48,759 nucleotides of DNA from Candidatus Eisenbacteria bacterium (GTDB lineage Bacteria > Eisenbacteria > RBG-16-71-46 > JASEGR01): positions 1-48,759 of the forward strand of contig JASEGR010000010.1 of NCBI GenBank assembly GCA_030017955.1, in the 5' to 3' direction. This document shows positions 1 through 33,968 of this stretch, in pieces; the stretch's first letter is position 1; each line of letters begins with the position of its first letter. The notes under the pieces were generated by a model. That model did no database searches. It was not told the origin of the DNA and saw only the letters and a list, made by a program, of their open reading frames with translations. The translations under genes were made by a program, and so were the position numbers.

Positions 1-94
1 CTGAGGGGGTCGGCCACGACCCCCTCATACCCCCTGGCAGTGTGCCTTACGAAACACCCTGCATTTCGTAAAGCTATTCCTGGGACGGCACACT
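1..94 (+). repeat. Intergenic modular hairpin repeat, copy A (cut by window edge)
   Basis: This is the right-hand part of a repeat of about 218 bp that occurs complete at 12731-12948 (inverted) and 33741-33959 (same orientation). Two hairpins are visible. One is the perfect palindrome GAGGGGGTCG-GCCA-CGACCCCCTC near bases 3-26. The other is a composite end hairpin bounded by AGTGTGCC (39-46) and GGCACACT (87-94), with the inner perfect stem TTACGAAA/TTTCGTAA. The element ends in the stop codon of the polyprenyl synthase gene: the AG of that TAG belongs to the repeat. The left part lies outside the window. Confidence 0.85.
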
Positions 95-1073
95 AGCTTT
101 CTCTTTCAACCACGTAGTCAACCGCGTAGTTAAGCGCCTCTCTTATTGGTGAGGAGTGAAACTCTGAGAGAATGTTCCTGGCCCTGCCTCCAAATTCCTT
201 TGCCTTCTCTCTGCTGTATTGGAATCCGCCATAGTTATTCACAAACGTCGTGACTTCCTTCCAGTGACCATCACCGATCTCTTCTTCTCCCACGACTTCA
301 AGGATCTTTGACTTTTTGCCCTTAGGAGCATTCTTCAGAGCTATTATGAGGGGAAGCGTGACTTTTCCTTCCTTGAGATCATTGCCTGAACCTTTTCCAG
401 TGACCTCTTCATCGCCCAGGAAGTCGAGAAGATCATCGACTATTTGGAAAGCAAGTCCGACTTTTTCCCCGAAGCTTGAGAACCTCTCCCTGAAACCGTT
501 TTCACCCCATCCGAAATATGCACCAATCTCGCATGATGCCGAGATAAGCGACGCGGTCTTTTCACGGATGATCGACAGGTATTCTTCCTCGGTTATCTCA
601 AAGTCCTTCTTCCTTTCAAGCTGCATCATCTCTCCCACGCTCATCCTATTCGTGGTCTCGGCGAGAATATGCATTATCGGGTAGAACTTCTTCTCAACGA
701 GCAGCCAAAACGCTTTTGAATAAAGGTAGTCGCCCATGGCGATCGCCACGTCGTCGGACCAGAGCGAATTCACGGTGGGAAGTCCTCTTCTCAATGGGCT
801 CTTGTCTATGGAATCATCGTGCACAAGGGTTGCGGTATGAATGAGCTCAACTATGTTCGCAGCGGCTATGAGCTCAGGCGGCGATGCTCCATTCAGCTTG
901 GAAACAAGGCACATGAGAATAGGCCTGAACCGCTTGCCTGAGGTAGAAACGAGGTGAGACAAGACTTTTCGTGTGAAGACACTGTTGTCGGAAAGTGTCT
1001 TTCGGAGCTCAAGTTCAATCAGCTCAAGCTCTTCCTTTATCGGCTCTCTGAGCGCAGAAATGTCCATAATCAT
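93..1073 (-). CDS. ispB: Long-chain trans-polyprenyl diphosphate synthase (IspB/HepT-like)
   Basis: Prenyl transferase of 326 residues that condenses isopentenyl diphosphate onto an allylic primer to make the side chain of quinones or a related C30-C50 product, at the inner face of the membrane. The first Asp-rich motif is seen as HDDSID followed by KSPLRRG, and the second as QIVDDLLDFLGD. The KEGKVTLPL segment after the second motif is also typical. ELIHTATLVHDD upstream of the first motif fits long-chain enzymes rather than FPP synthase; product length is inferred. The start ATG at 1073 (or the second Met, 6 nt on) has no clear Shine-Dalgarno and lies about 12 nt from a predicted transcription start. 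The gene stands alone, its 3' end touching repeat copy A. Confidence 0.9.
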   Translation of the reverse strand: MIMDISALREPIKEELELIELELRKTLSDNSVFTRKVLSHLVSTSGKRFRPILMCLVSKLNGASPPELIAAANIVELIHTATLVHDDSIDKSPLRRGLPTVNSLWSDDVAIAMGDYLYSKAFWLLVEKKFYPIMHILAETTNRMSVGEMMQLERKKDFEITEEEYLSIIREKTASLISASCEIGAYFGWGENGFRERFSSFGEKVGLAFQIVDDLLDFLGDEEVTGKGSGNDLKEGKVTLPLIIALKNAPKGKKSKILEVVGEEEIGDGHWKEVTTFVNNYGGFQYSREKAKEFGGRARNILSEFHSSPIREALNYAVDYVVERES

Positions 1074-1238: not shown

Positions 1239-2696
1239 CTATTTCTTCCCCAGATCGCCAACGATGCTATTGAATTGCTCTAGGGCGGATTCAAGATTCT
1301 CCGCAATCTCTCTCGCAAGCACATCCGGATTCGGAAGATTCTCTGAATCTTCAAGGCTTTCGTCCTTGAGCCAGAAGATGTCAAGGCTCGTCTTATCCCG
1401 TTTCAAGAGTTCATCGCAGGTGAAGGCTCTGAAGCGTTCCGCTTCCTTTCTGTCAAAACGATTCTCTAGGTTGTAGCAACTGACGAACTCTTCAAGGTCT
1501 TCGTAGCGCAAGGGAGCTTCCTTCAGCGTAAAGTGCCTGTTTGTTCTCAAATCGTATATCCAGAGTTTCTCCGTCCAAGGCTTTTCACTTGCCGGCTTCC
1601 TGTCAAAAAAGAGAACATTGGCTTTTACACCCTGGGCGTAGAACACCCCTGTCGGGAGTCTAAGGAGCGTGTGCACATCACACTCGTGTAACAGCTTTTT
1701 TCTTACAGTCTCCCCAGCGCCGCCCTCAAAAAGAACGTTGTCTGGCACCACGACCGCTGCCTTTCCGTTAATTTTCAAAAGCGTTTTCACATGCTGGAGG
1801 AAGTTCAATTGTTTGTTTGAAGTTGTTGCCGAGAAGTCCTGCCGCTCGTAGATCAATGACTCCCTGTCGGCCTTCCCTTCGCCATTTACAATGGTTATGC
1901 TGCTCTTCTTGCCGAAAGGAGGATTGGTCAGCACCATGTCAAAGCGGTCTCCTGGGTCAGAGACAAGTGCGTCGCCAGTGACAATCGGACTTTCATCTCC
2001 TCCTATGCCGTGAAGGTAAAGATTCATAGCGCACAGTCTCACAACATTGTCAACGATATCCCATCCCTTGAACGTGTTGAACTTCAGAAACTTCTTCTCC
2101 TCTATGTCCAGTGAATAGTTCTTGGCAAGATACTCATGGGCTGCCAGAAGAAAACCGCCTGTGCCGCAGGCGGGGTCGCAGATGGTCATCCCGGGTTCTG
2201 GCCGCATGACTTCTACTATCGCTCTGATGAGTGCCCTCGGAGTGAAGTATTGCCCAGCGCCGCTCTTAATATCCTCTGCGTTCTTCTGCAGAAGCCCTTC
2301 GTAGATTTCACCCTTCACATCAATATCCATGCCCATCCAAGTCTCAGCGTTTATCAGCTCGATGAGACGTCTGAGCTTCGCGGGATCCTGGATCCTGTTT
2401 TGAGACTTCCTGAAGATGGCACCAAGCATGCCTTTCCCTTTACCCAGAGTTTCGAGGATGTGTCGGTAGTGAACTTCCAGAGCATCTCCGTCTTTTTCAA
2501 CGAGGCTCTGCCAGTCAAGGTCCTTCGGGATGCTCGAAGGTTTATTGAAAGGCGGCTTTGTCTGCTCATCTGCCATCTTGAGGAATAGAAGATAGGTCAG
2601 CTGTTCCACATAGTCGCCGTAGCTCACGCCGTCGTCACGAAGCACATTGCAGTAATTCCATAGGCGCTGGACTATCGTGGATGATTCGTTGGGCAT
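1239..2696 (-). CDS. hsdM: Type I restriction-modification system DNA methyltransferase subunit HsdM
   Basis: N6-adenine methyltransferase subunit of a type I restriction-modification complex; it uses S-adenosylmethionine and acts with HsdS, which supplies target recognition. The 485-residue protein has an N-terminal HsdM helical domain (about 1-130), the lead-in GAGQYFTPRALI (147-158), SAM-binding motif I DPACGTGG (174-181) and catalytic motif IV NPPF (258-261). Length is normal and no break is seen. The start at 2696 has an AGAGGT ribosome binding site. It is the last gene of the island, 33 nt after DUF2283, and separated from hsdS by five small genes, which is an unusual order. It should be functional if HsdS is expressed. 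Confidence 0.95.
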   Translation of the reverse strand: MPNESSTIVQRLWNYCNVLRDDGVSYGDYVEQLTYLLFLKMADEQTKPPFNKPSSIPKDLDWQSLVEKDGDALEVHYRHILETLGKGKGMLGAIFRKSQNRIQDPAKLRRLIELINAETWMGMDIDVKGEIYEGLLQKNAEDIKSGAGQYFTPRALIRAIVEVMRPEPGMTICDPACGTGGFLLAAHEYLAKNYSLDIEEKKFLKFNTFKGWDIVDNVVRLCAMNLYLHGIGGDESPIVTGDALVSDPGDRFDMVLTNPPFGKKSSITIVNGEGKADRESLIYERQDFSATTSNKQLNFLQHVKTLLKINGKAAVVVPDNVLFEGGAGETVRKKLLHECDVHTLLRLPTGVFYAQGVKANVLFFDRKPASEKPWTEKLWIYDLRTNRHFTLKEAPLRYEDLEEFVSCYNLENRFDRKEAERFRAFTCDELLKRDKTSLDIFWLKDESLEDSENLPNPDVLAREIAENLESALEQFNSIVGDLGKK

Positions 2697-2729
2697 GAAG
2701 ACCTCTTTTACCCAAACACTTCGGCAGTT

Positions 2730-2951
2730 CTACTTTCCAGAGATGCTCCGTAATGTACGAGCCCGAAAGCCGATGATCGTAATGCCAACTACCACTTTTT
2801 TCTTATCGTCATAGCGAACAATCACACCGTCACCGATATCGGTTCCGACCGCGGCACGTGGTTTCCCTACTGAGATATAGAGCACATCGGCTTCCTCATC
2901 ATATTCCCAGTTGAGCGCGGGCTTGCCTTCAAGAATTCTTAAGGCTTCCAT
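2730..2951 (-). CDS. DUF2283 family small protein, possible antitoxin
   Basis: Protein of 73 residues with the DUF2283 signature: EYDEEADVLYISVGKP near the N-terminus, then a GDGVIVRYDD segment and a V-V-G-I-T-I-I-G strand. The open frame extends further upstream, but the start at 2951 is chosen because it has a strong GAGGAGG ribosome binding site and gives the usual family length. It overlaps the 3' end of the PBECR-like gene by 13 nt, so the two are likely translationally coupled. Small DUF2283 proteins are often found beside toxin-like nucleases; an antitoxin role here is inferred from that position. Confidence 0.75.
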   Translation of the reverse strand: MEALRILEGKPALNWEYDEEADVLYISVGKPRAAVGTDIGDGVIVRYDDKKKVVVGITIIGFRARTLRSISGK

Positions 2952-3250
2952 AAAACCTTCCTCCTCTTTAAGGGTGCGTTTGTGAAGTAAGCCGTGAGAA
3001 GAAATCCGTCTTTGTTCGAGATTTCTTTGCAAGCCGCAACAAGATATTTTCTAGTCAACGGCGTTTTTGAGTAAAGACGCACTGCCAATAGTTCACCGAA
3101 ATCACCTGCCAAGATCAGGTCAGGATTTGAAATCGTCTCGATGACCTTTCTCTTCTGGTTCAGCATTTCAGGATGCCGCCGCGTGATATGCTCCCATCTC
3201 TCTTGGCTGATTCGTATGGGGACTGTACTCTTCGAATAGGTGACAATCAT
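2939..3250 (-). CDS. PBECR-like small nuclease domain protein, possible toxin
   Basis: Protein of 103 residues resembling the phage-Barnase-EndoU-ColicinE5/D-RelE-like (PBECR) group. Family-like features are RISQERWEHITRRHPEM (about 13-29), a SNPDLILAG segment, then KYLVAACKEI and a GFLLTAYFTN strand near the C-terminus. The conserved H, R, K and T residues could form an RNase site. It starts just after the stop of the orphan hsdS tail and overlaps the DUF2283 gene. The arrangement, a basic nuclease-like gene coupled to a short acidic partner, resembles a toxin-antitoxin module. The family assignment is from memory of the motif pattern and the activity is unproven. Confidence 0.6.
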   Translation of the reverse strand: MIVTYSKSTVPIRISQERWEHITRRHPEMLNQKRKVIETISNPDLILAGDFGELLAVRLYSKTPLTRKYLVAACKEISNKDGFLLTAYFTNAPLKRRKVLWKP

Positions 3251-3251
3251 A

Positions 3252-3488
3252 TCATGTCCATGCCTCCCTGGCGCTCTGCATTCCCCCTTTAAGCCGCCTT
3301 CTGGCTTTCTTCTTATCTTTGTCCTTTAATTCCTGTCTTGCCCTTTCAGCTTTGATCCGTTCGAGCAACTTCTCTGCCGGTTCATCAGTCGGATCCTGCG
3401 GCACGAGCTTCCCTTCGAAGGCCCTTTTCAGGATACTCTGACGCAACCTCTCTGCTTGCTTGAGGCTTGACTCCACCTCAGGCTCCAT
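3252..3488 (-). pseudogene. Orphan HsdS C-terminal tail (duplicated specificity-subunit remnant)
   Basis: This 78-residue frame has only the last conserved helix region of a type I specificity subunit. The stretch QAERLRQSI followed by FEGKLVPQDPTDEPA and LLERIK closely matches the end of the intact HsdS encoded at 4120-5643, and the DNA is also clearly similar (compare 3345-3480 with 4215-4345). No target recognition domain is present. The frame overlaps the end of the nucleotidyltransferase gene by 11 nt, so it may still be translated. It looks like the remains of a second hsdS, or of a recombination that exchanged the specificity gene and captured the small genes between the two tails. Confidence 0.75.
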
Positions 3489-3798
3489 AGACTACCTCGC
3501 CGCTTTTTGAGTATTCAACAATTGCTGATTCTTCTTTTTCCCACTCGACTGGCGTCAAAGCGATTGCCTCTATCGGTTCAAAGACCTCGTATATGGCATC
3601 TGAAAGAATGTCTATTCTTTCCCAATAGCCTTTCCCCGCAAAGTCTTGAGATATGACCACGACGTCTATGTCGCTCCCCTCCCTAAACGTGCCCGTTGCA
3701 TAAGAGCCGTATAATATCAACTTGGTTATCGTGATGCCTTTGGACTCCAGGGCTTTTATGAAACGGGATAGTATCTTTAGAACAGTGTCTTTATCCAT
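3478..3798 (-). CDS. MNT-type minimal nucleotidyltransferase (partner of HEPN protein)
   Basis: Protein of 106 residues with the pol-beta-fold minimal nucleotidyltransferase signature LILYGSYATGTFREGSDIDV (about 27-46): the GS pair and both metal-binding aspartates of the GSx10DxD motif are present. It follows the HEPN gene directly (22-nt overlap), with a good GGGAGG ribosome binding site. In characterised HEPN/MNT pairs (HepT/MntA) the nucleotidyltransferase AMPylates and neutralises the HEPN RNase. The same role here is inferred from gene order and intact motif. Confidence 0.85.
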   Translation of the reverse strand: MDKDTVLKILSRFIKALESKGITITKLILYGSYATGTFREGSDIDVVVISQDFAGKGYWERIDILSDAIYEVFEPIEAIALTPVEWEKEESAIVEYSKSGEVVYGA

Positions 3799-4157
3799 TT
3801 CAAGACCTCCCTGCTTCTTGCGAGTATGTCCCTTACCACCGGTTCTGTGAAATCGTCTTGGAGCTTATCCAATTCCTCAGGGTATCTTGTCGCAACGCTG
3901 GCTTCATTAAGTCTTACAAGGAATCTTCCGACGGATTCCTCAGGTTTCGCATGAGTCTTGTTCAGAAGATAAACAAGATTGTGCGTTCTCGGTGGTGCGT
4001 CTTTCAGCTTTTCCCGGTAAACCCCTTTTAGCGCCTTCTCGAGCGCCAAATGGCACATAAAAACCGCGTAGAAATGTCTTCCTGCCTTAAACATATGCTC
4101 TGCTGTCTCGATATCGTAGTCAGCTTGTCTTAGCCACTCCTGAGGATCTTTCGCCAT
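3777..4157 (-). CDS. HEPN domain protein (partner of MNT nucleotidyltransferase)
   Basis: Protein of 126 residues with the HEPN helical pattern: a WLRQADYDIETAE helix, FYAVFMCHLALEKALKGV, PPRTHNLVYLL and a VATRYPEE segment near the C-terminal third. The frame is open further upstream inside hsdS, but the start at 4157 fits the family N-terminus and has GGAGAACAGG upstream. It overlaps the hsdS 3' end by 38 nt. A clear R-x4-6-H RNase motif is not seen; the nearest candidate is R-T-H in the PPRTHN segment. It may therefore belong to the less well understood HEPN group usually linked to a nucleotidyltransferase rather than to proven HepT toxins. Confidence 0.8.
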   Translation of the reverse strand: MAKDPQEWLRQADYDIETAEHMFKAGRHFYAVFMCHLALEKALKGVYREKLKDAPPRTHNLVYLLNKTHAKPEESVGRFLVRLNEASVATRYPEELDKLQDDFTEPVVRDILARSREVLKWIKTLF

Positions 4158-5643
4158 AACCTGTTCTCCGTTTTGGTTTCTTTCCTTTTGCCTCAACCGC
4201 GCGTTTGGCTTTCTCAATTTTGATCCGTTCGAGGAGCTTCTGAGCCGGTTCATCAGTCGGATCCTGTGGCACAAGCTTGCCCTCGAACGCTTTTTTCATA
4301 ATGCTCTGCCGCAACCGTTCCGCCTGGATGAGGCTCTGCGCCACTGCCTTTTCCACCACGTCCGCCACAGAGAAGCGGTGCTCGATTTCTTCTACGATTT
4401 TGCACTGCTCAGCAGAGGGGGGAAGTGGAAGAAGGATTTGTGACAATGCATTTGCGTTGACATTCGGTTGTCCAATTCCCAGTTTCCCTTTTTGGATTTG
4501 TAGCCAATAAAGAGGGGATTGAAAAAAGTAGTACACAGTTTCCTTCGTGACGCTGCGGTGAAGTATTATTCTTATGAGGTACGACGCAAACACCGCCTCA
4601 GGGATGTCACCTCTAATAAGGAAACTCTTCCCGACAGTCGCTCCTGTTCTTGCGAAAACCAGGTCTCCATCTTTCAGGAGGTATTTTTCTTTCATAGACT
4701 CATCAATCTTACAGTAGGGAACCGAATCCCAATCAACCCCGCTATTCTGTATGTCGGTGATTCTGAGGAACCTTGGACCTATTGGCAAATCTGCGGCCTT
4801 TTCTGTATACCCGTAGTGTATTCCTCCCGCTAATTCTCCGACAGCAGTCCATTGCCACCCTCGAGGCAGCTTTGGCAAAGTCGATGTGTCTGCCTGCGGC
4901 AGTTCCTTGTATTTCTTCCCGAGCTTCGTCTTTTGTTCTTGTTTGATGCGTTCAAGAAGCATAGACGCAGGTTCAACTTCGCCTTTGTGAGCCTCCCTCC
5001 ATTCTTCGGTCAGTTTTCCTTCGAAAGCAGACTTCAAAACCGTCTGCCGATAACGCTTCAACTGTGTCCTTACCTTCTTCAATGCCTCTACGCCCGCATC
5101 CAACCTGGTGAACAACTCCTCAATCTTCGCCACAATCCTGCGTTGCTCGGCAAGAGGTGGAAGAGGGAGAGGACTCTGCTGAATATAGCTGGCTGGAACC
5201 CTCAATTGACCTGCGGAGCCAGTCATGTTTCCTTGAGCTTCCTTCCTGAATTCCTCTCTTATCAAAAAGAAAAAGAATAACCTCCTCGGAAGGCATTCAT
5301 GCAACCTGACTACATGGAATTCAGTTGAACCAAACCCAATACCGTTCTTTAGGCCATGAGCAATGGCTACCTTTCCGTTTTCCATACATGGAGTGATCTT
5401 TGCAAGAAGCAAATCACCATTCACGAAATGCGTATAGCCTTTTCTCACCTCTGATAGTTTCTTGCTAATGGACAAATCAATGCGACCTGTTAGTTCTTCG
5501 ACGCATTTCATCGGCAGGAACGTAACCTCCGTATCGTGGACAGTGGCTTCTGCGTAGAAGCCCGGATTGACTTCGCCTATCTCTTCTAGCCCCGCCCACA
5601 CCCAACCTTTGGGTAGTTCATCCTGAACCATAATCTCTTTCAT
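4120..5643 (-). CDS. hsdS: Type I restriction-modification specificity subunit HsdS
   Basis: DNA-recognition subunit of 507 residues that directs the HsdM/HsdR complex to a bipartite target. Two target recognition domains are visible, one starting at LPKGWVWAGLEEIGEV (about 10-25) and one at LPRGWQWTAVGEL. Each is followed by the conserved coiled region with PLPPLAEQRRIV or PLPPSAEQCKIV and a QTVLKSAFEGKL or QSIMKKAFEGKL helix. Length is normal. The start at 5643 has AGGAAA upstream and lies 16 nt below the AlbA_2 gene stop. The last 38 nt overlap the HEPN start. The C-terminal block is duplicated in the orphan tail at 3252-3488. Confidence 0.93.
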   Translation of the reverse strand: MKEIMVQDELPKGWVWAGLEEIGEVNPGFYAEATVHDTEVTFLPMKCVEELTGRIDLSISKKLSEVRKGYTHFVNGDLLLAKITPCMENGKVAIAHGLKNGIGFGSTEFHVVRLHECLPRRLFFFFLIREEFRKEAQGNMTGSAGQLRVPASYIQQSPLPLPPLAEQRRIVAKIEELFTRLDAGVEALKKVRTQLKRYRQTVLKSAFEGKLTEEWREAHKGEVEPASMLLERIKQEQKTKLGKKYKELPQADTSTLPKLPRGWQWTAVGELAGGIHYGYTEKAADLPIGPRFLRITDIQNSGVDWDSVPYCKIDESMKEKYLLKDGDLVFARTGATVGKSFLIRGDIPEAVFASYLIRIILHRSVTKETVYYFFQSPLYWLQIQKGKLGIGQPNVNANALSQILLPLPPSAEQCKIVEEIEHRFSVADVVEKAVAQSLIQAERLRQSIMKKAFEGKLVPQDPTDEPAQKLLERIKIEKAKRAVEAKGKKPKRRTGYGERSSGVAKTS

Positions 5644-5659
5644 TTTCCTAATCTAGGAC

Positions 5660-6850
5660 TCATTGCTGCATTGACCGGTTCTGAACCAGAATCTCTTGGA
5701 CTGTTTCATCAAGGTTCGCGGGAACTAACTGAAAAACCCATGCTATTTCTCGCAACATTTCTGGTAGCACACAACTTATGCTTCTAACCGGATCGTACGC
5801 CAGTGTAATCCTGGAAGAGCTCACTGTGTCATCCACACAGAGACCGCGTTCCATAAGCTCAAGTTCCGCAAAACCACCCACTTCGTACAACATAGCACAA
5901 GATCGAATGCCAGAGAGGATCACGCTAATCTCCACATTTCCTAGGTATTGGCAACTTTCGTAGAGATCTTCTGCAATCTTTAGGACCTTCCCTAGAATTC
6001 CGACCAGCTGAGGAAAACGAAGAGCTTTTGTCGGTCTCTTCTCCAATTCATAGGCCACTTGAACCAGCTCCTCAATAAACTCGAGCTTGGAGAAGAAATA
6101 GACCAGTCCGTATTCATTCATCTCCATATGTCTGTGGGATTTCGGACGACTATCAATGACCCCGCCAAGAACTCTGACGGGCTGTGAGATGTATCCATAA
6201 GTCCCCTCCTCTTGAGCAAACAAATAGAGTTTCTCCTGGGACACAATAGGCCTGTGAGGAAAGACTGGAATCACGGTGACTTTGAGGGTGGGTCCAAGAA
6301 TCGGATCTGGCACGTGGAGTCTTACCCGGTGATCGGCTGAACGCAAAAGGGCCGTTTTCTTTCTTGAAGGTGTCTCTCGCCGTTTCAATAAATACTCCAG
6401 TCTGTCTATCTCAGCAAGCTCGTGAGGCTGACTTATGGATCCAGTCCTGACATACACGCGCGTAGAATTCTGAATGGCATGAGGAGCACCAAGACTTTCA
6501 CTCACCCGGATGACCACGACAACATTCTCCTCCTTGTCCGGAACCTCTATTGTACGAACCTCAGGCAGAACCGACGGATAAATTCCGGTAATAGAACTTT
6601 GCGTGATCGTTTCTTCAATCCCCATCACTTTCTTCATTCCGGTGATCGGCATTTCCGGGACTCCATCTTTTGCCTTCACTCCAATAAGGCAGACCCCACC
6701 CATCGTATTGGCAAAAGCAGAAATAGTCTTGCGCGGATCTTTAGGAAGGGTCTGTTTGTATTCGACACGTACCCCTTCTGGCCACACCCTACAAAAGTCT
6801 TCAATATCGGCGAATCTAATCTCTGAGAGGGTCTTCGTAAATAAGGACAT
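5660..6850 (-). CDS. AlbA_2 (Schlafen-like) putative DNA-binding protein in restriction operon
   Basis: Protein of 396 residues with an N-terminal AlbA_2 domain (about 10-150): EFKQT-like VEYKQTLPKDPRKTISAFANT, then MGGVCLIGVKAKDG, and later TRVYVRTGSISQPH, the usual order of this nucleic-acid-binding fold. The C-terminal 240 residues are not recognised and show no ATPase motif. It lies between hsdR (32 nt) and hsdS (16 nt) with GGAGCAATTCTG before the ATG, so it is part of the operon. Such accessory proteins occur in some type I systems and have no fixed function; a modulating or second defence role is inference. Confidence 0.8.
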   Translation of the reverse strand: MSLFTKTLSEIRFADIEDFCRVWPEGVRVEYKQTLPKDPRKTISAFANTMGGVCLIGVKAKDGVPEMPITGMKKVMGIEETITQSSITGIYPSVLPEVRTIEVPDKEENVVVVIRVSESLGAPHAIQNSTRVYVRTGSISQPHELAEIDRLEYLLKRRETPSRKKTALLRSADHRVRLHVPDPILGPTLKVTVIPVFPHRPIVSQEKLYLFAQEEGTYGYISQPVRVLGGVIDSRPKSHRHMEMNEYGLVYFFSKLEFIEELVQVAYELEKRPTKALRFPQLVGILGKVLKIAEDLYESCQYLGNVEISVILSGIRSCAMLYEVGGFAELELMERGLCVDDTVSSSRITLAYDPVRSISCVLPEMLREIAWVFQLVPANLDETVQEILVQNRSMQQ

Positions 6851-6882
6851 CAGAATTGCTCCATATTAGCACCATTTGCGAA

Positions 6883-9657
6883 CTACGCTGCCAGCGCCTC
6901 ATTTAGTTCTTCCAGAACCTGATTCAATTTGTCTCCGAATAGTTGGTATGCCCTCACCGGTCCACCCTTCTCGTGGAATGGCGCGAGTTCAAAATCCTCC
7001 ATTGCAACACCCAAGCTCGTGGCAATGTGGTCTTTTATCATTTCGAGCCAGTCCATTTGCTGGGGTGCAAACTTGCGTCCGGCTTTCTCTTGGAGTCCAA
7101 TCCATTCACGGAACCTGCGCTCCACTGCATCAGAGTATGGTTCCAGCATGTAGGTCTGGCCGATAGCAAAGCGCACAAGCGAGATAATGTCCGTGAGGAG
7201 TTTCACAGGTCCAGCCCCTCTGACCTTTGCCGACTCAAGTTGCCTGTAAGCCTCCCAAAGAAGGTCTGGTGCAAAGCCATATGGCGGCTTTGCTATAGTT
7301 TCTGCAAGCTCCTTGATTTGCTCGTAGGTGAGGCGGCGCTTGCCATATGGTTTGCTGTAGATAATTTGAAGGGCTGTAAGTTCATCCTTATTTTTCTCAA
7401 TGAATTTTCTGAAGTTGTCAACGATCGACCGCGCTCTTTCCTTTGCCTGATCGTCAAAGCCAGCAAAGACTACCTTGTCTTTGCTCACAGTATCGATGGT
7501 CTGTTCGTATCTCTTCTTGATTTCAATGATTGTGTTTCTCAGCTTCGGATTATCAAAAGGTTCGCAAGCGGTCTTCACGAGTTCCTCGGAAGCTCTCTTG
7601 ACTTGGTCGTCGGTTGGCTTCTTTGTATCGAAAATCTCCTTGGCTTTTTCAACTTTTTTGTCCGGGTCAATTGCATCGAGCAAATCGTTGATGATATGTT
7701 TGAGTGGCCTGCCTCCCGCAGCGTTTTCGATCGTCTTACTGTCCTTTTCGTCAATCTCCCTGCTCAGTCTCGCGAGCCTCCCCGCCAGAGAAGTAAGTAC
7801 GTCCTCGTCTCTATTGCCCAACGCGACCCACGTGATGAGTTTCTCAAAGGGAATGTTCCTATTGCGCTCAAGAGGTCTTGAATCAGTCTTGTCGCTCTCG
7901 CACACCCCGACGGCATCCACAATCACAAAGTGCGTCTTGTGAGCTGAATCGGGAGTAACCGCATTGAAGTCAGTCTGAGGGATGACTCTCATGCCCCGCC
8001 CCTTCATTTGCTCAAAATAGACCCTTGACTTCACATCTCTCATGAACAGAAGGCACTCCAAAGGCTTGATATCAGTGCCGGTGGAAATCATGTCCACCGT
8101 CACCGCTATGCGCGGGTTGTAGGAATTGCGAAAGCTGGAGATCAGATCTTCCGTATTCTCGCCAGTCGTTTTGTAGGTTATCTTCTTGCAAAACTCATTT
8201 CCCTTGCCGAACTCTTCTCGCACGATATGAACGATGTCCTCTGCATGAGAGTCATCCTTGGCAAAGATAAGAGTTTTCGGAACCTCCTTCCTGCCAGGAA
8301 ATATCTCGGAAAAGAGCTTCTCCCTGAATGTTCTCACAACGGTTCTTATTTGGTCCGGGGCCACAACATCTCGGTCTAATTGAACCGGAACGTATTCCAA
8401 GTCCTCATCCAACTGCTCCCAACGTCTCTTCCTGGTGAGTTTATCTCGCTTGTCAACATAATAACCTGCTTCCACTTTGCTGCCTTTCTCGGTGATCTCA
8501 GTCTTGATTCTATAAACATCGTAACCAACGTTCACGCCATCTGCGACGGCACGCTCATGGTTATATTCAGTCACAAGATTCTGGTCAAAGAACCCAAGGG
8601 TTTGTTTTGAAGGTGTTGCGGTCAGTCCTATGATGAAGGCATCGAAGTATTCAAACACCTGACGCCAGAGGTGGTAGATGGAGCGGTGGCACTCATCCGT
8701 GATTATGAAATCAAACGTTTCTATCGGAATCTGGGGATTGTAGGACACTTCTCCGAGCTGGGAACCGCCGGGCGAAATATCGAAGAGCGATTGCTCTTCA
8801 AGTTCGGTATCAAAGTCTGGCTCACCCTTCAGCATTGAGTACAGCCTCTGAATAGTCGTAACACATACACGGCTCACAGGATCAAAGGTGTTGGAGGTGA
8901 GGTGTTGCACATTGTACAGTTCTGTGAATTTCCGGCCGTCGTCAGGGGTCACAAACTGCTCGAACTCTCTTTTGGCCTGTCGGCCAAGGGTTTTCCTGTC
9001 AACCAGGAAGAGTACACGTTTTGCGTTTGCAAACTTGACCAATCTGTAAACGAAGTTCACAGCGGCGTATGTCTTTCCGCCTCCCGAAGCCATTTGAATG
9101 AGCGACCTGGGTCTGGCGTCCCCAAATGATAGTTCCAGATTTCGAATTGCTTCTATCTGGCAATCTCTCAAACCTTCAATTGCCAGAGGTGGTAGTGCTC
9201 GCAACTTCGTTCTGAGGGTCTCTTCTTGCGAAAGCCATCCTCTAAGAGTTTCTGGCTTGTGAAATGCGAACATTCTTCGAGAGCGAGCCTCAGGGTCTCT
9301 CAGGTTCCTGAAGAAAGTCTCTATGCCTGTACTTTCATATGCGTATGGAGGGGGATTCCCGACGCGAGGAACATTCTCTGGGATACGCGTTAGATAGTTT
9401 GCAGTTTGTTCTGCCACGCCGCTTAGTGTGGTCCCTTCAGGCTTTGCTTCAACGACACCTGCTGCTTTTCGGTCCAAGAAAAGAAGATAGTCAGCAGTTC
9501 CAGACTCAAGAGGAAACTCGCGGACAGCCACGCCAAGAGACGCTCCAAGATTCATTTCCCTGCGATCTTGAACCTTCCAGCCCGCGGATTCAAACAACTC
9601 GTCAATCTTCTGTCTTGCCTTCTCTTCTGGTTTCATATAGGGCGCATCTACATGCAA
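6883..9657 (-). CDS. hsdR: Type I restriction endonuclease subunit HsdR
   Basis: ATP-dependent translocase and nuclease subunit of the type I complex, 924 residues. The nuclease domain is N-terminal, with GTADYLLFLDRKAAGVVEAK giving the PD-(D/E)xK residues D56, E70 and K72. The superfamily 2 motor follows: Walker A ASGGGKT (190-196), DECH (321-324), GLTATPS, a TVDMISTGTDI motif V and the QMKGRGMR motif VI. All catalytic residues are present. The start is uncertain between 9657 and the Met seven codons on; neither has a clear ribosome binding site. It heads the island operon. Confidence 0.95.
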   Translation of the reverse strand: MHVDAPYMKPEEKARQKIDELFESAGWKVQDRREMNLGASLGVAVREFPLESGTADYLLFLDRKAAGVVEAKPEGTTLSGVAEQTANYLTRIPENVPRVGNPPPYAYESTGIETFFRNLRDPEARSRRMFAFHKPETLRGWLSQEETLRTKLRALPPLAIEGLRDCQIEAIRNLELSFGDARPRSLIQMASGGGKTYAAVNFVYRLVKFANAKRVLFLVDRKTLGRQAKREFEQFVTPDDGRKFTELYNVQHLTSNTFDPVSRVCVTTIQRLYSMLKGEPDFDTELEEQSLFDISPGGSQLGEVSYNPQIPIETFDFIITDECHRSIYHLWRQVFEYFDAFIIGLTATPSKQTLGFFDQNLVTEYNHERAVADGVNVGYDVYRIKTEITEKGSKVEAGYYVDKRDKLTRKRRWEQLDEDLEYVPVQLDRDVVAPDQIRTVVRTFREKLFSEIFPGRKEVPKTLIFAKDDSHAEDIVHIVREEFGKGNEFCKKITYKTTGENTEDLISSFRNSYNPRIAVTVDMISTGTDIKPLECLLFMRDVKSRVYFEQMKGRGMRVIPQTDFNAVTPDSAHKTHFVIVDAVGVCESDKTDSRPLERNRNIPFEKLITWVALGNRDEDVLTSLAGRLARLSREIDEKDSKTIENAAGGRPLKHIINDLLDAIDPDKKVEKAKEIFDTKKPTDDQVKRASEELVKTACEPFDNPKLRNTIIEIKKRYEQTIDTVSKDKVVFAGFDDQAKERARSIVDNFRKFIEKNKDELTALQIIYSKPYGKRRLTYEQIKELAETIAKPPYGFAPDLLWEAYRQLESAKVRGAGPVKLLTDIISLVRFAIGQTYMLEPYSDAVERRFREWIGLQEKAGRKFAPQQMDWLEMIKDHIATSLGVAMEDFELAPFHEKGGPVRAYQLFGDKLNQVLEELNEALAA

Positions 9658-12387: not shown

Positions 12388-12730
12388 GACAATTGTTTTC
12401 GGCACTCTTCCACTCCCGCAATGAAGGGGAAACATGACCCGGGAAAGCTGAGCCCTAAATGGAGAATCGGCATTTCCGCCCGGGCAATTAGCGGCTCAAG
12501 CCGGCACCAGTTGCCCGGCACGGATGCGATGTTCGGAGGAGATCGTACCCGATTCCCCATCAATCAGAGGAAGGTTTCCCCGGTGAGCTGGACGTTGTCC
12601 TGAGGCGCGAGTCTTTCTCTTTCGTCCCGGCGCGACTCTTTGTCAATCAAGCTCAAATACATGCGGCTGCGGCCATGAAACCTCGGCAGCTCAGGCACAG
12701 AAGTTGCCATTGATGTCACACAGAATCTCG
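12388..12730. other. Non-coding stretch upstream of nrdJ, nothing recognised
   Basis: About 340 bp with no supported gene. The short open frames have no family features or ribosome binding sites. There is an 8-bp inverted repeat CCGGGCAA/TTGCCCGG around 12482-12517 and a near-direct repeat GGCGCGAGTCTTT / GGCGCGACTCTTT near 12605-12640. No B12-box-like sequence was found on either strand. Confidence 0.5.
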
Positions 12731-12948
12731 AGTGTGCCGTCCCAGAAATAGCTTTACGAAATGCAGGGTGTTTCATAAGGCACACTGCCAGGGGGTATGA
12801 GGGGGTCGTGGCCGACCCCCTCAGGGGTGACAGCGTAGGGATGCGACGAGTAGGAGCATCCTGAAGCGTCAGAGGGGCGACAAGCCCCTATGAAAGTGTC
12901 GTGTCCGGGGGCAAACGCATATACAAGGAATTCCCGGGACACGACACT
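12731..12948 (-). repeat. Intergenic modular hairpin repeat, copy B (complete, inverted relative to A and C)
   Basis: Complete 218-bp unit. The ends form imperfect terminal inverted repeats, AGTGTGCCGTCCC at the left and GGGACACGACACT at the right (10 of 13 match). From left to right it has an end hairpin bounded by AGTGTGCC/GGCACACT (12731-12786), the palindrome GAGGGGGTCG-TGGC-CGACCCCCTC, the hairpin GATGC...GCATC, the hairpin AGGGGC-GACAA-GCCCCT, and an end hairpin bounded by AGTGTCGTGTCC/GGGACACGACACT (12895-12948). No transposase is encoded. It lies between the divergent nrdJ and the Cys-rich secreted protein gene. Confidence 0.9.
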
Positions 12949-13054
12949 AGGAAAGGTGGTGGTTGTGATGAGTCTGTAGTTCGGATCGCAAGTGCCGCAT
13001 GACCGTTTTCGAGTTCACCAGCAACCAGAGCACACGCGAAGAAAGGAGTGGAGG

Positions 13055-33698: not shown

Positions 33699-33740
33699 AT
33701 TACGATCATATGCGAACTTGCCGTCACGTGGCAACCATCC

Positions 33741-33959
33741 AGTGTCGTGTCCCGCAAGTTTCTTGTCTATGTCTTTACCCCGGGACACTACACTTTCATA
33801 GGGGCTTCTCGCCCCTCTGACGCTTCAGGATGCTCCTACTCGTCGCATCCCTCCGCTGTCACCCCTTAAGGGGGTCGGCCACGACCCCCCTATACCCCCT
33901 GGCAGTGTGCCTTATGAAACGCCCTGCATTTCGTAAAGTTATTTCTGCGACGGCACACC
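33741..33959 (+). repeat. Intergenic modular hairpin repeat, copy C (complete)
   Basis: Complete 219-bp unit in the orientation of copy A and opposite to copy B. It starts AGTGTCGTGTCCCG (33741) and ends in GGCACACC (33959). The end hairpin AGTGTCGTGTCC...GGGACACTACACT, the AGGGGC/GCCCCT hairpin, the GATGC/GCATC hairpin, the GGGGGTCG/CGACCCCC palindrome and the TTATGAAA/TTTCGTAA hairpin are all present with scattered differences from copy B. It lies between the divergent Mut7-C and M20 genes and may supply part of their upstream regions. Confidence 0.9.
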
Positions 33960-33968
33960 AGAATCATC

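Follow-up and report, generated by a model that had tools for sequence, protein, structure and literature searches.

A repeat of approximately 220 bp, present in two complete copies (B and C) and one partial copy (A) in the window analysed here (48,759 nucleotides, the entire contig C10; the draft genome to which it belongs has 248 contigs and totals 3.1 Mb), is in all probability a MITE of the IS630/Tc1-mariner group. This assignment links a high-copy repeat to a terminal sequence that recurs, in several phyla, both on short elements and on complete insertion sequences of the IS630 type, and the element accounts for many of the contig breaks of the draft genome.

The element encodes no protein and is bounded by imperfect terminal inverted repeats (AGTGTGCCGTCCC / AGTGTCGTGTCCC, 10 of 13 identical), as in a MITE. 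Copy A is incomplete because the window begins where contig C10 begins (Table 1). The sequence-only reading that first described the repeat had placed the copies correctly to within 2 bp, and the order of the hairpins, the ends and the folding of each end into a hairpin of about 55 bp were as it described them. Copies B and C differ at 22 alignment columns, and neither an intrinsic terminator nor a sigma-70 promoter was found within copy C. Elsewhere in the window, a 167-bp direct repeat (74% identical; positions 3310-3476 and 4178-4344, 868 bp apart) lies in and beside an hsdS-like gene that belongs to a type I restriction-modification cluster (1239-9657), and it may be the remnant of a second specificity gene.

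Table 1. Copies of the element in the window and their parts. Full-unit coordinates of copies B and C take in the terminal CTAG or its variants.
Feature	Positions	Strand	Description
Copy A	1..96	+	Right-hand portion alone (hairpin H2 and the last stretch of core A)
Copy B	12729..12950	-	Complete H1-coreA-H2 element
Copy B, hairpin H1	12895..12948	-	Left end; outer arm is the IS630-type terminal sequence
Copy B, core A	12787..12894	-	Contains three further hairpins
Copy B, hairpin H2	12731..12786	-	Right end
Copy C	33739..33961	+	Complete H1-coreA-H2 element
Copy C, hairpin H1	33741..33794	+	Left end
Copy C, core hairpin 1	33800..33816	+	AGGGGC..GCCCCT
Copy C, core hairpin 2	33828..33851	+	GGATGC..GCATCC
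Copy C, core hairpin 3	33868..33891	+	GGGGGTCGGCCACGACCCCC
Copy C, hairpin H2	33904..33959	+	Right end

Searches of the element's own genome with three queries returned at least 40-41 matches each, and the end motif AGTGTSSYGTCCC (at most one mismatch) occurred 186 times, against 20 occurrences of a reversed control. Once duplicates were removed, 83 distinct copies or fragments were counted; both ends are present in about 30 of these, and most of the others are interrupted by contig ends. Since the two halves of one copy may be counted twice, our estimate is no fewer than about 60 copies in the genome, the high and dispersed copy number in a single genome that is expected of a MITE. The earlier expectation that many copies would exist, formed from those in the window, was thus borne out, and the repeat is far from being limited to three. 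A nucleotide search of 46 other genomes of the phylum, all from one class, did not recover the element (0/46), and neither end motif matched the viral contigs.

The identity of the element is indicated by its ends. The end CTAGTGTCGTGTCCCGGAAATTC agrees at 22 of 23 bases with one terminus of a complete insertion sequence of the IS630 type that occurs in a different phylum. A scan of approximately 85,000 species genomes for CTAGTGNNGTGTCMCRKAAATTC yielded 27 stretches where about one would be expected by chance (by our own arithmetic), distributed among Deltaproteobacteria, Acidobacteria, Gemmatimonadetes, Verrucomicrobia, Rokubacteria and others, with more than one stretch in several genomes and five in Syntrophaceae UBA4054. 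Many of the 27 are short elements carrying a matching second end; one of these loci (L242) terminates in GGGACGGCACACTAG, exactly like H2, and another (L234), read by eye, likewise has two successive hairpins. The five loci of UBA4054 (L241, L243, L244, L246 and L255) are copies of a MITE of ~150 bp with the same left end, which is another, independent expansion of the group.

Two of the 27 stretches (L252 and L254) are complete insertion sequences of ~1.2 kb. L252, from a Terriglobia MAG, encodes a 362-aa transposase with DDE_3 (4e-21) and helix-turn-helix domains and is bounded by CTAGTGTTGTGTCCCGGAAATTC, 22/23 identical to H1, and by GGGACACAACACCTAG. L254, from Rokubacteria, has a DDE_3 match at 1.2e-24 and is bounded by CTAGTGCCGTGTCCC and GGGACACGGCACTAG. 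Judged by their DDE_3 and helix-turn-helix content and by the C-terminal motif YSSWLNQVE of L252, both are IS630-type in the established nomenclature. The ends of the element are homologous to those of these autonomous insertion sequences, though its copies are not the degenerate ends of one known insertion sequence, the outcome that would have refuted the sequence-only reading. Among the alternatives offered in that reading, a MITE, presumably moved in trans, has good support, and IS630 can be given as its family.

Within the host genome a single IS630-type transposase was found, in two pieces at the ends of contigs C19 and C3, with 49% and 37% identity to L252; the pieces would be parts of one element. 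The perfect 15-bp ends of this host IS630 (CTAGTGTAGTGCGTC/GACGCACTACACTAG) match H1 at 11 of 15 positions; this host element is a relative, and perhaps not the cognate. An autonomous partner with the same ends as the repeat was not found in the host draft genome, where this 11/15 match belongs to the sole IS630-type transposase, and no module was present in the 36 small contigs (C213-C248) searched for such a partner. Because the genome is a draft, a missing partner is no proof of absence; moreover, a co-resident partner favours IS630 membership but does not define it, because partners can be lost. We propose that the element ends CTAGTGTCGTGTCCC / CTAGTGTGCCGTCCC would act as the terminal recognition sequence of an IS630-type transposase, which in trans would excise the element and insert it into CTAG sites with duplication of the TA, and that the cognate transposase has probably been lost from, or is unassembled in, the host genome. 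A point against this explanation is that Tc1/mariner chemistry is not known to require a hairpin at each end.

The IS630 family targets TA, which is duplicated upon insertion, and the Tenzen papers, as cited in PMC2170065, report that TA within CTAG is preferred. Insertion at TA within CTAG was likewise found for the element: CTAG is present at the majority of 111 ends, the remainder being mostly CCAG or TTAG. Only 10 of the 18 full copies have TA on either side, which counts against a TA duplication, and alignment of the flanks revealed no target duplication longer than TA. Among the 36 ends of 18 aligned full copies, the base adjoining the element (A on the left, T on the right) is conserved at 35, and the base beyond it, the outer one of the presumed duplicated TA, varies at 11. 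Five copies (L015, L017, L023, L026 and L029) have outer flanks CC..GG at both ends and retain the inner A and T. The conserved A and T with variable outer bases, together with the CC..GG copies, are poorly explained by decay of a TA duplication, and the two flanking bases could belong to the element itself.

In 704 kb of host sequence (the window plus L264-L303), CTAG is depleted 6-fold, with 436 sites against 2735 expected from base composition. Outside elements, 184 sites lie in genes, 136 are intergenic and 53 are stop codons, so that if in-gene insertions are lost, stop codons constitute 28% of the remaining sites (53/189). A stop codon lies in the terminal CTAG of 8 of the 31 two-ended copies (26%), the share expected from CTAG targeting alone. 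With TA in CTAG as the target, G as the first base of the element and C as its last, a CTAG arises anew on both sides; the first G of the element completes TAG, and a C-TAG stop codon therefore survives insertion. Re-formation of CTAG at the tip of the element provides a simple account of its frequent exact position at stop codons.

Each end of the element is a hairpin of its own; in the outward direction the left ends conform to CTAGTGYYGTGTCMCRKAAATTC and the right ends to CTAGTGYRCCGTMMCAKAAATAA. Subfamily I (H1-coreA-H2) comprises 21 aligned full copies with pairwise identities of 80-97% (mean 90%), and subfamily II (H3-coreB-H4) comprises four, with a different stem in core B at the position of core hairpin 2. 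Four additional copies are hybrids, with the arrangements H3-coreA-H2 (one), H3-coreB-H2 (two) and H3-short core-H1' (one); the two subfamilies and these hybrids show module exchange. One copy (L014, C23:27971-28281) has a duplicated core, H1-coreA-coreA-H2, spanning a short N run, and could be either a real tandem or a scaffold join; a solitary H2 hairpin is found in C45 (L155:2264-2321). A further repeat, CCCTCTCCCC..GGGGAGAGGG, adjoins copies of the element (L162:1600-1700 and L155 at ~2180-2200).

The orientation of the element among genes, called with our own codon-usage script rather than a standard gene finder, is strongly one-sided. Of the 23 copies lying between co-directional genes, 21 are oriented against those genes (p = 7e-5), or 19 of 21 when two gapped copies on C9 are omitted. 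Of 50 H2/H4 ends, 37 point toward the 3' end of the adjacent gene, and of 60 H1/H3 ends, 45 point toward the 5' end (11 and 4 toward a 3' end, one with no called gene). Such a bias might arise from a preference of insertion for one replication strand and owe nothing to transcription, and because genes are mainly co-oriented over 10-20 kb, the direction of the genes is difficult to distinguish from that of replication. We nevertheless consider this origin of the bias rather unlikely, since the eight copies not located between co-directional genes are split 4:4 with respect to the local majority strand, the ratio for those between such genes being 21:2, and the one copy whose tandem genes run against the local majority follows its genes. 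In these small numbers, the bias tracks local transcription rather than the broad strand.

The C-rich strand of the element contains 77 C and 47 G, and it is this strand that is transcribed in the rare orientation between operon genes. Its transcription there may be harmful, possibly through Rho, and the one-sided orientation between co-directional genes would then reflect selection on transcripts; the effect between operon genes is strong and testable. A wider reading, which we advance tentatively and with more doubt than confidence, is that the copies constitute a recombining MITE system in which independent hairpin ends are exchangeable between subfamilies, and insertions preserve C-TAG stops and are kept almost only one way round in operons, so providing a standard transcript-compatible operon spacer.

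The same orientation would also suit a structured regulatory RNA family that spread by duplication and acts in operon mRNA as a stabiliser, processing site or attenuator, its mobility being secondary or over. The whole element folds far better than shuffled sequences (z about -6) on both strands, and stem columns vary threefold less than other columns (2.7% against 8.7%). In addition, the end hairpins of the subfamilies differ by compensated changes, as H1 and H3, and likewise H2 and H4, carry two-sided substitutions at their feet with pairing kept (alignment A2, columns 7-8/53-54 and 172-173/219-220). However, these compensatory changes concern 8 of 36 pairs and represent few evolutionary events, and within the 21 aligned copies of subfamily I most changes destroy pairs: 33 altered stem cells are broken versus 17 still paired, 13 of the latter being one-sided and only 4 changed on both sides. 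The compensated stem changes reported earlier between copies B and C did not hold up, the GGGGGTCG/CGACCCCC stem being identical in the two; what covariation there is lies between subfamilies and is weak within subfamily I. An Rfam search of the window gave no match, which, with the mostly broken stem changes within the subfamily, leaves the suggestion of a family of structured RNAs without positive support, and IS630-type ends with CTAG targeting account for the placement of copies, stop-codon sites included. We regard an RNA family as improbable.

A REP/BIME- or REPIN-like family, in which a RAYT (Y1) tyrosine transposase recognises the hairpins and their copying proceeds through single-stranded DNA, would share with the element two inverted hairpins separated by a spacer, the lack of a long target duplication, and a high, mainly extragenic copy number, and the genome does contain one Y1_Tnp gene. 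This RAYT-like gene (L143, G000:C43:21396-21725) lies between the repeats AAATAGTGACAGTCACCTATTT and AAATAGTGACAGGCACCTATTT, which are a separate palindromic repeat family of the host genome, and not beside the element. For REPs, the tag described is GTAG or CGTC and stands at a single end (PMC3733652), in contrast to the CTAG at both ends of the element, and the ends of the element match those of complete IS630-type DDE elements. A RAYT/REP origin was accordingly rejected, the single Y1 gene having unrelated flanking repeats, and the label REP/BIME-like, offered in the sequence-only reading, falls with it; we consider such an origin very improbable. That a draft metagenome assembly of 248 contigs, many of them ending inside the element, has inflated the copy count can be dismissed as next to impossible, since at least 30 copies are internal to contigs with unique flanks on both sides, and breaks of this type arise from repeats, not repeats from breaks.

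In comparison with known systems, the swapped hairpin modules and one-sided orientation of this IS630-group MITE are unusual details and not a new class. REP/BIME/REPIN sequences with their RAYT resemble the element in having paired inverted hairpins at high, extragenic copy number, but differ in transposase class, tag and target (PMC3733652, PMC2817692). BOX of Streptococcus pneumoniae is likewise a modular hairpin array (boxA-boxB-boxC) with about 125 copies, some of them shown to be transcribed; however, its TIR resembles ISSpn2 rather than IS630, and its modules vary in number while its ends are not exchanged (PMC3049150). The Chunjie MITE of Geobacter uraniireducens, described in a review (PMC10969869), is a further system close in kind. 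RUP of pneumococcus, a proposed MITE of IS630-Spn1 with about 110 copies in one genome, also encodes no protein, has IS630-family-like ends and a TA target, and is mostly intergenic (PMC2229807, PMC3049150). RUP is nonetheless 107 bp long with a 9-bp TIR and no modules, whereas the element has 220 bp, five hairpins and exchanged end modules; the terminal sequences of the two differ, and the proposed partner insertion sequence of RUP is common in the host of RUP. Taken together, the element is a genuine high-copy IS630-group MITE, closest in kind to RUP of pneumococcus and Chunjie of Geobacter.
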